Positions 27,992 through 32,246 of a stretch of 64,000 nt of DNA are shown here, in pieces. Both the position numbers and the translations under genes were made by a program. The DNA comes from Anaeromyxobacter soli (GTDB lineage: Bacteria > Myxococcota > Myxococcia > Myxococcales > Anaeromyxobacteraceae): positions 1 through 64,000 of the forward strand of contig NZ_JAKZLF010000003.1 in the NCBI RefSeq assembly GCF_022808855.1, in the 5' to 3' direction. A model generated the notes under the pieces. That model was not told where the DNA came from and did no database searches. It saw only the letters and a program-made list of their open reading frames with translations. How positions within the stretch are numbered: the first letter of the stretch is position 1; each line of letters begins with the position of its first letter.

Positions 27992-29230
27992 GTGGTCGCC
28001 GCCGTCGCCGTGTTCTCCGTGACGTACGTGGCGGTCGCCGCGGGTCGCCTGCCGTTCCTGTCGCTCGATCGGCCGGCCGCGGCGCTGCTCGGTGCCGTGC
28101 TGATGGTCGCCTCCGGCGTCCTGACGCCCGGCGAGGCGGGCGGCGCGGTGAACGGGGACACCCTCGGCCTGCTGCTCGGGATGATGCTCCTCTCGGCGTA
28201 TCTCGCGGAGGCGCGCTTCTTCCGCTGGACGAGCTTCCGGATCCTCGGCGCGGTCCGCACGCCGAGGTCGCTCCTGTGGGCGGTCGTCTTCGCCGCGGGG
28301 ACCCTCTCGGTGCTGCTCGTGAACGACACGGTGTGCGTGATGGTCACGCCCATCGTGCTCTCGGTCGTCGAGGACGCCGAGCTCCCGCCCCTGCCGTACC
28401 TGCTCGCGCTCGCCTTCGGCTCGAACGCGGGCTCGGTCGCGACCCTGACCGGCAACCCGCAGAACATGATCGTCGGGACGCTGTCGGGGATCTCCTACGC
28501 CCGCTTCGCGGCCGCGCTCGCGCTCCCGGCGCTCGCGTCGCTCGTCGTCGTCGCGCTCGTCCTCGAGCGCGTCTTCCGCGAGGACCTGCCGCGCCGCGTG
28601 CTCGCGCCGACCCGGGTCGCGGCCCCCGAGCTCGACAGGCCGCTCCTCGCCCGCGCCCTCCTCGCCACCGCCCTCGCGGTGGCGGGCTTCCTGGCGGGCT
28701 TCCCCCTCGCCTGGACCGCGCTCTTCGCCGCCGCGCTCTGCATGGCCGTCGCCGGGCGCGCGCCGCGCGAGGCGCTCCAGCGCGTCGACTGGCCGCTGCT
28801 CGTGTTCTTCGCGGGGCTCTTCGTCGTGGTGGCCGGGATCGGGAAGGCGGGCATCGCGTCGCGGATGTTCGACCTCATCGTCCCCGCGCTCGGCCATGAC
28901 GCCGTCCGGCAGTCGGCCGTGTTCTCGCTCTTCACGGTCGGGGCGTCGCAGGTCGTCTCGAACGTCCCGTTCGTGCTGCTCGCGGGCGAGTGGATCCCGC
29001 GGCTCGCCGAGCCGCGCCTGGCGTGGCTCGCGACCGCGCTCGCCGCCACGCTCGCCGGCAACCTGACGGTGCTCGGATCGGTCGCGAACCTGATCGTCCT
29101 GGAGCTGGCGGGCTCCCGGGCGGGCATCGGCTTCTGGCGCTTCTTCCGGATCGGCGCGCTGGTCACGGCCGCGACGCTCACCGTGTCCTTCGCGATCCTG
29201 CTCGGAGAGCGAGCGCTCGGGCTCGTCTGA
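27992..29230 (+). CDS. ArsB/NhaD/SLC13-type anion transporter
   Basis: 412 residues with about 11-12 transmembrane helices. SVLLVNDTVCVMVTPIVLSV and the family motif TLTGNPQNMIVG, repeated in weaker form near the C-terminus (TVLGSVANLIVLELA), identify the ion-transporter superfamily that includes ArsB, NhaD and citrate carriers. The substrate (arsenite, Na+ or a carboxylate) is uncertain: there is no arsR or arsC nearby. GTG start at 27992. Confidence 0.85.
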   Translation: MVAAVAVFSVTYVAVAAGRLPFLSLDRPAAALLGAVLMVASGVLTPGEAGGAVNGDTLGLLLGMMLLSAYLAEARFFRWTSFRILGAVRTPRSLLWAVVFAAGTLSVLLVNDTVCVMVTPIVLSVVEDAELPPLPYLLALAFGSNAGSVATLTGNPQNMIVGTLSGISYARFAAALALPALASLVVVALVLERVFREDLPRRVLAPTRVAAPELDRPLLARALLATALAVAGFLAGFPLAWTALFAAALCMAVAGRAPREALQRVDWPLLVFFAGLFVVVAGIGKAGIASRMFDLIVPALGHDAVRQSAVFSLFTVGASQVVSNVPFVLLAGEWIPRLAEPRLAWLATALAATLAGNLTVLGSVANLIVLELAGSRAGIGFWRFFRIGALVTAATLTVSFAILLGERALGLV

Positions 29231-29344
29231 ACGCAAGCGTCCGGATCGACTGAGGTTTACCGGGAGGACGCCCGGAGGCGCGCCCACCACCCGCCCGGGC
29301 GGGCCTGCGCGAAATAGAAACCCGCGCGATCCGTAGGGTTCTTC

Positions 29345-30004
29345 ATGATTGCGGCCGCGGCGCTCGCCGATCTAGGTTTCGCCCTCTCGTGGCAGGTGGA
29401 GGAGCGCTCGTTGGCGCCACCGGTGGTGACCGGCGAGGCCGCCCTGACGCGCTCGGCCGCGAAGGGCGACCGCAAGGCCTTCGGCCAGCTCGTCGACGCG
29501 CACAAGCGCGCCGTGTACGGGCTCTGCTTCCGCCTGCTGCGCGAGCCCGAGGAGGCGCGCGACGCCGCCCAGGAGGCCTTCGCGCGCGCCTACGCGGCGC
29601 TCTCCACCTATGACGCCGCCCAGCCGTTCGTCCCGTGGGTGCTCCGCATCGCGCGCAACCACTGCCTCGACGTCCTGCGCCGGCGCCTGCCGGACACCCA
29701 GCGCGTCGAGCTCGACGCCGAGCCGGACGAGGGCGCGCCGCGCGAGCTCGCCGATCCGGCCGCCGTCCGTGCCGACGACGCGCTCGAGCGGCGCCAACTC
29801 GCGGGCGCGCTCGAGGCGGCGGTCGCGGCGCTGCCCCAGAACTACCGCGAGGTCGTGCACCTCTTCCACGTCGAGCACCTCTCCTACAAGGAGATCGCGG
29901 CCACGCTCGACGTCCCCCTCGGCACCGTGATGACCTGGCTCCACCGCGCGCGCGCCCGCCTCAAGGAAGCGCTCGCGGAGCCGGGCGCGGAGAACCTGCG
30001 ATGA
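29345..30004 (+). CDS. ECF-type RNA polymerase sigma factor
   Basis: 219 residues. Region 2 lies at about 40-105 (AFGQLVDAHKRAVYGLCFRL, RDAAQEAFARAYAALSTYD, PWVLRIARNHCLDVLRRR); region 4 at about 160-210 (LPQNYREVVHLFHVEHLSYK, EIAATLDVPLGTVMTWLHRA). The N-terminus before region 2 is longer than usual, so a later GTG (29426) may be the true start. The stop overlaps the ATG of a zinc-finger anti-sigma factor, the standard ECF arrangement. Expected to direct transcription of an envelope-related regulon, probably including its own operon. Confidence 0.92.
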   Translation: MIAAAALADLGFALSWQVEERSLAPPVVTGEAALTRSAAKGDRKAFGQLVDAHKRAVYGLCFRLLREPEEARDAAQEAFARAYAALSTYDAAQPFVPWVLRIARNHCLDVLRRRLPDTQRVELDAEPDEGAPRELADPAAVRADDALERRQLAGALEAAVAALPQNYREVVHLFHVEHLSYKEIAATLDVPLGTVMTWLHRARARLKEALAEPGAENLR

Positions 30005-30528
30005 GCCTCTTCGACGGACACCTCACGGACGCCCAGGCCCAGCGGATGGTCGACGGCGCGCTGCTCGAGCCCGAGACGGCCTCGGTCGAGCGGCACGTGG
30101 CGGAGTGCCCCGAGTGCCAGGCGGCGGTCGAGTCGTACCGGATGCTCGCGATCGCGCTCGAGGACCTCGAGGTCCCCCCGCTCCCCGCCGACTTCACGGT
30201 GGGCGTCCTCGCCCGCATCGACGCGGCCGAGCGCGCCGCCGCCCGCGAGCGGCGCTGGGCGCTCGGCATCCTCGCCGGCGTCGCCCTCGCGACGATCGTC
30301 GCGTTCGTCGCGGCCGGCGCCCGGGCCTGGGCGCCCTCCGTCTCCGGCGTCGCCGAGCGGCTCGGTGACGTCGCGCTCGCCGTCCGCGTCGGCGCCGGGT
30401 TCCTCCCGGCGCTCGTCGGCGTCTTCCGCCTGCAGATCATCCTCGTCGCGGCCGTCGTCGCGATCCCCCTCCTCGTCGCCCTCGCGCGCCTGATGCCCGC
30501 GCCCGAGGCGCGGGCCGAGGTCGCCTGA
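30001..30528 (+). CDS. Zinc-finger membrane anti-sigma factor
   Basis: 175 residues. The N-terminal ZAS/zf-HC2 motif is RHVAECPEC (H32, C36, C39). One transmembrane helix covers about 86-107 (ALGILAGVALATIVAFVAAG) and at least one more lies near the C-terminus (LQIILVAAVVAIPLLVALA). It should hold the upstream sigma factor at the membrane until released. The ATG overlaps the sigma stop (ATGA), and its own stop overlaps the next ATG (TGATG), so all three genes are coupled. Confidence 0.9.
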   Translation: MSLFDGHLTDAQAQRMVDGALLEPETASVERHVAECPECQAAVESYRMLAIALEDLEVPPLPADFTVGVLARIDAAERAAARERRWALGILAGVALATIVAFVAAGARAWAPSVSGVAERLGDVALAVRVGAGFLPALVGVFRLQIILVAAVVAIPLLVALARLMPAPEARAEVA

Positions 30529-32246
30529 TGGAGACCCCCATGCTCGCGCTCCTGCTCGCCGCCCTGGTCTTCCAGCCCTCCCCGGAGACGCCCTCCGCGC
30601 CTCCCCCGCCGGCCGCCGCCCGCCCCGGCGCCGAGCTCCCGGCGCCGCCGGTGCCGGCCCGTCCCGGCGCGGCGCCGAGGCCCCCGGCCCGTCCGTCGGC
30701 ACGCCCCACTCCGCCCCTCCCCGCGCTCCCGCCGCCGACCGGCGCCGCCGATCCGCTCGTCGGCGAGTGGCCCGCCGAGCCGTCCGGCAAGCACGTCACG
30801 ATCTCGGACACGGTCTCCCTCGACGACGCGCTCGAGAAGATCGCCGACGCGGCGGGCTGGAACCTCGTCCTCAACACGGGTCGGACCGGCAACATCCAGC
30901 TCGTCCTGAAGCTCCGCGACGTGCCGGTCGAGGACGCGCTGCGCGCCGCCCTGAGCGGCACGCTCCTCGAGGCGTCGCGCCGGCGCAACACGGTCGTGGT
31001 CGCGCCGTCGAGCGGCCCCGTCGCGCGGCAGCCCACGCTCGTGGGGTTCGAGAAGCCGAGCGGGAAGCGCTTCACGGGCGAGTTCGAGGAGACCGACGTC
31101 GACGACGCGCTCCGGCACGTCGCCGCCGCGGGTGGGCTCTCCATCGTCATCCCGCCGGGCGTCCGCGGCGAGGTGTCCGGGGTGTTCAACGCGACGCCGG
31201 TGGAGGAGGCGCTGCGGGCGGTGCTCGATCAGGCCGGGCTCGCGGCGGAGCTGCAGGGCGGCGTCGTGGTGGTGCGTGCGCAGCCCCTCGGCGGGTTCGC
31301 CGGCATCGGCGCGGAGGCGCGCCGCACGGCCGAGCGCGCCATCCGCGACGCCAGGCGCGAGTGGGACGACGGGCGCGAGACCGGGCAGGACGCCCGCGAC
31401 CGCGTCGAGAACGGCGACGTCACGATCCACCCGGGCGAGGAGGTCCGCGACGTCGTCGCCATCCGCGGGAACGTGCGCCTCGAGCCGGGCTCGACCGCGC
31501 GCAACGTCGTCGCGGTGCTCGGCGGCGTGAAGCTCGAGGCCGGCGCCACCGCGAGGGAGGTGACGGCCGTGCTGGGGAGCGTCGAGCTCGGCCCGGGCGC
31601 GGTGGTGGAGCGGAACGCGACCGCCGTCGGCGGGTCCGTGAAGCCCGATCCGCACGCGACCATCGGGGGCGACCAGACGAGCGTCTCGGTCCCCGGGCTC
31701 CCGGGGATCGGCGGGATGTTCGGATCGAGCCTCCTCTTCGGTGGCCGCGAGTCGGTGCTCTGGTCCGTCGGCCAGGTGCTCGCGAAGTTCGCCCTCTTCT
31801 TCGCGCTCGGGCTCCTCGTGGTCGCGCTCTTCCCGCGCCGCGTCGACGCCGTCGCCGAGGCGATGCTCGCGAGCCCGTGGAAGTCGATCCTCACGGGCCT
31901 GCTCGGCCTCGTCGCGACGCCGGTCCTCGCGCTCCTGCTCGTGGTGACCATCATCGGCATCCCGCTCGTCGCGGTGCTCGCCCTGCTCGTCCTCGCGGCC
32001 GGGGTGCTCGGGTTCACGTCCCTCGCCATCCACGTCGGCCGCTCGATCCCGCTCCCGCAGCAGCGCAGCGCGTGGGTCCTGCAGCTCGCGATCGGCACCG
32101 CGATCGTCGTGCTGGTGACGGCCGTGCCGTTCCTCGGCGGGCTCGTCTGGATCGCCGCCGCCCTCGTCACCTTCGGCGCCGCGCTCCGGACGCGGTTCGG
32201 GCAGCAGAGGCCGGTGCTGCCGACGACGATGGCGCCCGGGATCTGA
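30528..32246 (+). CDS. STN-STN / beta-repeat / multipass membrane protein of the ECF operon
   Basis: 572 residues with an unusual layout. A signal-like N-terminus (1-16) and Pro-rich linker to about 85; two STN (secretin/TonB short N-terminal) domains at about 88-160 and 180-252, each with a 'V.L...L..l....' pattern (VSLDDALEKIADAAGWNLVL; DVDDALRHVAAAGGLSIVI); a charged linker; a beta-repeat of bactofilin-like rungs at about 297-385 (GNVRLEPGSTARNVVAVLGG, VKLEAGATAREVTAVLGS, VELGPGAVV); then about four transmembrane helices from 412 to 555. Co-encoded with a sigma/anti-sigma pair through one-base overlap, so likely part of its sensing or response circuit. No named family covers the whole chain. 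Confidence 0.75.
   Translation: METPMLALLLAALVFQPSPETPSAPPPPAAARPGAELPAPPVPARPGAAPRPPARPSARPTPPLPALPPPTGAADPLVGEWPAEPSGKHVTISDTVSLDDALEKIADAAGWNLVLNTGRTGNIQLVLKLRDVPVEDALRAALSGTLLEASRRRNTVVVAPSSGPVARQPTLVGFEKPSGKRFTGEFEETDVDDALRHVAAAGGLSIVIPPGVRGEVSGVFNATPVEEALRAVLDQAGLAAELQGGVVVVRAQPLGGFAGIGAEARRTAERAIRDARREWDDGRETGQDARDRVENGDVTIHPGEEVRDVVAIRGNVRLEPGSTARNVVAVLGGVKLEAGATAREVTAVLGSVELGPGAVVERNATAVGGSVKPDPHATIGGDQTSVSVPGLPGIGGMFGSSLLFGGRESVLWSVGQVLAKFALFFALGLLVVALFPRRVDAVAEAMLASPWKSILTGLLGLVATPVLALLLVVTIIGIPLVAVLALLVLAAGVLGFTSLAIHVGRSIPLPQQRSAWVLQLAIGTAIVVLVTAVPFLGGLVWIAAALVTFGAALRTRFGQQRPVLPTTMAPGI

Follow-up and report, generated by a model that had tools for sequence, protein, structure and literature searches.

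Organization of the locus

In this study, we analyzed a 64,000-nt stretch of DNA from Anaeromyxobacter soli (hereafter, the window) and describe an operon of three plus-strand genes encoding an ECF sigma factor (P0001), a membrane anti-sigma factor (P0002), and a third protein (P0003) that combines STN domains, a bactofilin-like fold and a predicted membrane anchor. The sigma gene (29345-30004) overlaps the anti-sigma gene (30001-30528) by four bases (ATGA), which in turn overlaps the third gene (30528-32246) by one base (TGATG), exactly as an earlier note on this DNA had it. The features of the locus are as follows.

29311-29335, plus strand: promoter-like motif GAAATA-N15-CGTA, 9 nt 5' of the sigma start codon, kept at 12 of 14 loci
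29345-30004, plus strand: ECF sigma factor P0001, 219 aa, with Pfam regions 2 and 4
30001-30528, plus strand: membrane anti-sigma factor P0002, 175 aa, with zf-HC2 at residues 17-40 and hydrophobic segments at 85-111 and 123-168
30528-32246, plus strand: P0003, 572 aa, STN-STN / bactofilin-fold / five-helix membrane protein (Pfam, AlphaFold model, structure matches)
30528-30755, plus strand: short, hydrophobic, signal-like helix at the P0003 N-terminus (residues 4-14), then a Pro/Ala-rich linker that runs to residue 76, disordered in the model (pLDDT about 40)
30789-31007, plus strand: P0003 STN1 (N0-like), residues 88-160 (Pfam on the cut half, model)
31068-31280, plus strand: P0003 STN2 (N0-like), residues 181-251 (Pfam, model, structure matches)
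31284-31373, plus strand: P0003 connecting helix, residues 253-282 (model, low to middling confidence)
31389-31691, plus strand: P0003 beta helix of bactofilin fold with 18-residue rungs (approximate length), spanning residues 288-388 (model, structure match, ortholog indel)
31755-32189, plus strand: P0003 five predicted transmembrane helices, residues 410-554 (model, positive-inside pattern)

P0001 contains sigma regions 2 and 4 only (Pfam, E about 5e-17 each), and its top NCBIfam match is SigW (1.1e-41), which lies below the cutoff of that model. The assigned start codon is supported by the conserved N-terminus and by its distance from the motif. P0002, whose gene adjoins the sigma gene, has a zf-HC2 domain (E 9.7e-6, above the Pfam cutoff) followed by two hydrophobic blocks. 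The zinc finger is the only domain found in P0002; no STN-like periplasmic domain was detected, and its 175 residues leave no room for one. Two homologous anti-sigma factors (L044:6447-6851:+ and L081:7890-8270:-) lack the zinc finger and keep the helix motif that follows it and the membrane segments. A CitMHS/ArsB-type transporter gene (window 27992-29230) lies directly 5' of the operon and is also found there in A. terrae (L083). At L042 and L046, the reading frames ending directly 5' look like the same transporter, and at L046 the stop codon of that frame overlaps the motif. Scans for standard sigma-70 promoters and for terminators returned no match.

Domain architecture and predicted fold of P0003

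Pfam recognizes two STN stretches in P0003 (whole-protein E 5.2e-16). When the two halves were tested apart, both passed the Pfam cutoff of 28.4 bits (36.7 and 34.1 bits), and they are 38% identical to each other. An AlphaFold model built from 13 family members has a mean pLDDT of 72, with disordered linkers and values mostly of 80-91 in the STN domains and rungs. In structure comparison, STN2 superposes on secretin N0 domains, on the STN part of the FecR-like anti-sigma factor 4m0n (Z 10.2), and on the signaling domains of the TonB transducers FpvA and FoxA. The two STN domains named in the earlier note are thus borne out by Pfam, by the model and by the structure matches. At the level of sequence profiles, the STN domains of P0003 matched only PilQ secretins in the PDB at E < 0.01, and no TonB transducer was matched at that threshold; PilQ is also the top NCBIfam match of P0003. 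Because the profile matches are to PilQ only, the ancestry of these domains looks secretin-like, with a fold that is common to TonB signaling domains. P0003 has no secretin-domain match, and its C-terminal third consists of helical membrane segments.

The rungs downstream of STN2 form a beta helix in the model (residues 291-386, pLDDT about 87-91). Their best solved match is the bactofilin of T. thermophilus (6rib_A, Z 12.4, rmsd 1.8 Å over 89 residues), and orthologs differ by an 18-residue indel, which equals one rung. On the predicted model, P0003 therefore has the bactofilin beta-helix fold, in agreement with the polymer-like rungs that had been noticed before. By sequence, the rungs have no Pfam match above cutoff, PF04519 included. 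A Toastrack assignment of the rungs gained no support, given the lack of a Pfam match and the bactofilin as top structural match; Toastrack structures, which may themselves match, were absent among the structural matches listed for P0003. Two paralogs (L016:6941-8092:- and L017:5387-6592:+) consist of a signal peptide, rungs, and a membrane part shared with P0003; they have no STN domains and no adjoining sigma pair, and the one at L017 passes the PF04519 cutoff. An ECF-like sigma factor with a SnoaL-type tail near L017 is unrelated to this operon.

The model places membrane helices at residues 410-434, 450-473, 477-505, 515-531, and 536-554. The earlier note had proposed an inner-membrane anchor of about four helices; the anchor is upheld, and the number is more likely five according to the model. 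Across 13 sequences, the loops that follow helices 1, 3, and 5 are rich in basic residues (K/R), and those that follow helices 2 and 4 have almost none. By the positive-inside pattern, this distribution would put the STN domains and the rungs on the periplasmic side and the C-terminal end inside. P0003 is thus predicted to be held in the inner membrane by five helices, with its STN and bactofilin-fold parts facing the periplasm.

STN-fold domains linked to an ECF sigma factor and a membrane anti-sigma factor recall FecI-FecR-FecA and FoxI-FoxR-FoxA, and STN-STN pairing has been documented for FoxA and FoxR (PMC11637429). One could therefore picture a variant of TonB-type cell-surface signaling, in which the STN domains of P0003 take the signal from the signaling domain of an outer-membrane receptor and pass it to the anti-sigma factor, and the superposition of STN2 on 4m0n, FpvA, and FoxA is in keeping with it. 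In the known systems, however, the STN domains are not carried by a separate inner-membrane protein as they are here, and P0002 offers no STN-like domain for docking. The PilQ-type sequence of the STN domains also speaks against such a variant, as does the neighborhood: no TonB receptor with an N-terminal STN domain was present among the third protein and the twelve neighboring genes scanned. We consider this variant very unlikely. Membership of the FecI/FecR family itself was rejected, the anti-sigma factor having no STN domain and none of the neighboring genes scanned encoding a TonB receptor. The connection to receptor-to-anti-sigma signaling drawn in the earlier note is weakened by the PilQ-type STN sequences and by the missing docking domain.

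Conservation of the triad

Each of the 14 homologous loci read has the sigma, anti-sigma, and third genes as a triad. These loci represent at least eight families, of which one lies outside the order. The gene order is the same at every locus, and the gaps range from an overlap of a few bases to about 18 nt at nearly all of them. Within the genus, the triad is present in genomes G001, G002, and G005; a contig break interrupts it in A. terrae (G003), where contig C133 ends with the sigma gene and a partial anti-sigma gene and contig C53 starts with the third gene. Elsewhere in the order, six further genera belonging to six families have it, as do two named MAGs, and outside the order it is present in one genome of the phylum; these samples of the order and phylum were small. 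Homologs of the third gene standing apart from the sigma and anti-sigma genes were looked for, and the pair adjoins the third gene at 14 of 14 loci, A. terrae counted despite its contig break. The tie to the sigma pair that the earlier note had put forward is therefore upheld. The third proteins carry between one and three STN domains, and a PEGA domain is present in addition in one member. For the alignment of close relatives, five true relatives were kept and a genuine secretin (L053) was left out. Searches of plasmid and phage collections gave no relative, and a single-protein scan of genome contigs gave no match. PADLOC gave no support for a defense role.

In 13 of 13 genomes, the sigma gene and the third gene were either found together or missing together; these genomes are related and not independent, so no probability is attached to the co-occurrence. 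The three genomes that lack the third gene also lack this sigma factor. A sigma profile scored 265 bits or more in every one of the ten genomes that carry the third gene and 154 bits or less in the three that do not; the profile was built partly from those ten, and G002, G003, and G010, which were not used, still scored 288 to 343. One of the species lacking the system is an Anaeromyxobacter (G004) with neither the sigma factor nor the third gene, in which no match to the small bactofilin-fold protein described below was found, and which amounts to a natural deletion. The joint presence and absence, together with an adjacency that holds from family to family and beyond the order, makes it most improbable that the third gene is functionally unrelated and merely happens to lie on a common transcript.

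A promoter-like motif and the predicted regulon

The motif GAAATA, followed after exactly 15 nt by CGTA, lies 5' of the sigma gene at 12 of the 14 loci. At the two exceptions, L045 and L047, the region 4.2 helix reads APGTIMARLFRAR versus VPxGTVMTWLHRAR elsewhere, a difference to be expected if the -35 block is read by this helix. The motif occurs once in the window and in none of 100 shuffles. In the home genome, there are six CGTA-form sites versus 0.01-0.3 expected under base, dinucleotide, or trinucleotide models, and all six are directly 5' of a gene. A scan of 13 genomes for GAAATA-N15-CGT found five to eight sites in each of the five sigma-bearing Anaeromyxobacter genomes, where the reversed control gave zero or one, and three sites in G004, the sixth genome of the genus. 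The CGTA ending was found at 27 of 32 sites in the five genomes versus 0 of 3 in G004. From this correlation, we infer that the sigma factor reads GAAATA-N15-CGTA. The motif upstream of the sigma gene is accordingly predicted to be the promoter of its own operon, which would be self-activated. The CGTA block ends 8-14 nt 5' of the sigma start codon, in most cases 9 (window 29311-29347 and 11 related loci). Because almost no leader is left between the two, a sigma mRNA from this promoter would probably be leaderless.

The predicted regulon was derived from this one strict pattern. In the home genome (G000), it comprises the sigma operon, a secreted 172-aa bactofilin-fold protein, a 73-aa hydrophobic protein, a DUF5916 protein (E 3.2e-29), a secreted DUF2807/Toastrack protein (DUF2807, 5e-40), and a 54-aa secreted peptide. 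The 172-aa protein has rung pLDDT values in the 90s in its model and matches 6rib_A with Z 11.2. Such small secreted bactofilin-fold proteins (168-172 aa) have the motif 5' of their genes in all five sigma-bearing genomes of the genus (L021:1340-1855:-, L018, L019, L020, and L126), and they may act as partners or caps for the P0003 rungs. The DUF2807/Toastrack protein also carries the motif in G002, G003, and G005, and the 73-aa protein in G002, G003, and G006. Hydrophobic proteins of this type (67-73 aa, no known family) are shared by two or more families of the order and always begin 9-13 nt 3' of the motif (L116:2618-2836:-, L138, L127, and L153). At L115 and L139 (G000 and G003), the motif precedes the 54-aa secreted peptide (MKGxALLALALAxxAAFxFS...), with a large gene diverging from it on the opposite strand. 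A zinc-ribbon PspC protein has the motif in G001 and G002 (PspC, 5.3e-20), and a Yip1/YknW-family membrane protein has it in G001 and G005, and in G010 with CGTT (Yip1, 5.3e-16; YknW family, 3.9e-13). Neither PspC nor Yip1 sites were seen in the home genome, which means that the regulon has a patchy distribution or that some sites escape the strict pattern.

In G018, at a distant locus, the third gene has a GAAATA-N15-CGTA site of its own, 23 nt 5' of the start. This is what would be expected of an output gene, and it keeps alive the main rival to a regulatory role: P0003 might be output only, a stress-induced inner-membrane scaffold in which the bactofilin fold braces the membrane and the STN domains tether periplasmic or secretin components, with no part in sigma activity. 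The presence in the regulon of another bactofilin-fold protein and of other membrane-bracing families, as well as the STN-less rung-plus-membrane paralogs that exist without this sigma factor adjoining, lend it some weight. The strict one-to-one linkage and the translational coupling to the anti-sigma gene count against it, whereas the other regulon members are scattered. We regard the output-only role as the less likely of the two; the G018 site fits a sensor and an output alike, and all observations would be explained by a sensor whose own induction provides feedback.

Discussion

We propose, with a probability of roughly 0.55, that the operon is a self-activating ECF sigma envelope-stress system with P0003 co-regulating from the periplasm-facing side. 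The anti-sigma factor would hold the sigma factor at the membrane, with P0003 beside it. The STN/bactofilin part would sense or scaffold the periplasmic and inner-membrane state and control the stability of the anti-sigma factor. Envelope stress would free the sigma factor to transcribe its own operon together with a protective set (the secreted bactofilin-fold, DUF2807/Toastrack, PspC, YknW-like Yip1, 73-aa hydrophobic, and DUF5916 proteins), and newly made P0003 would reset the switch. P0003 would act as a periplasm-facing co-regulator that informs or stabilizes the anti-sigma factor, and its contact with that factor and its effect on sigma activity are both putative.

The system is best read as working like sigma-W/RsiW of Bacillus subtilis with PSP-type parts added. 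Both have a membrane-bound anti-sigma factor, SigW is the best NCBIfam match here (below cutoff), and the predicted regulon includes PspC, Toastrack-type, and YknW-family proteins, yknWXYZ being controlled by SigW (PMC3210768, PMC2788229). The system differs from sigma-W/RsiW in its third operon gene of new architecture, its promoter sequence, and its Gram-negative envelope. PspC and Toastrack are tied to envelope stress, and the PSP, Lia, and Toastrack systems likewise connect a transcription factor to membrane proteins with several helices and to right-handed beta-helix domains, with mention of an operonically linked sigma factor (PMC11237479); PspC and DUF2807 are predicted outputs here. 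Unlike Toastrack, for which a cytoplasmic position on the C-terminal side of the membrane part is argued (PMC11237479), the beta helix of P0003 is bactofilin-like, predicted to be periplasmic, and preceded by STN domains. Bactofilins share this fold and are typically cytoplasmic, about 3% having N-terminal membrane helices (PMC12448750), whereas P0003 is predicted to be periplasmic and multi-pass. PilQ-type secretins are the nearest sequence relatives of its STN/N0 domains; P0003 differs from them in lacking the secretin channel domain and in its anchoring to the inner membrane through C-terminal helices.

A more specific and rather unlikely version is that P0003 senses PilQ secretin whose localization has failed or which has stalled in the inner membrane. 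Secretin N0 rings would be recognized by the PilQ-type N0/STN domains of P0003, the bactofilin-fold part would aid assembly, and the sigma factor would be released to induce PspC and its partners. Psp proteins bind mislocalized secretin multimers (PMC5596341), and STN domains bind each other (PMC11637429). If true, this version would provide a sigma-factor counterpart to the link between PSP and secretins.

Our literature search found no description of the operon or the third protein and no paper joining STN, bactofilin, and sigma factor; the proposed co-regulated envelope-stress response looks like an undescribed one. None of the literature searched brings together STN domains of the secretin type, a bactofilin fold predicted to be periplasmic, and a multi-pass anchor, all of which are linked here to a sigma factor. 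The common promoter motif gives a defined regulon that is testable in cultured Anaeromyxobacter, and the third protein offers a concrete handle on how cells detect faulty secretin assembly. Going by the contents of the predicted regulon, a Gram-negative phylum may have assembled its envelope-stress response out of the families that Bacillus puts under sigma-W.
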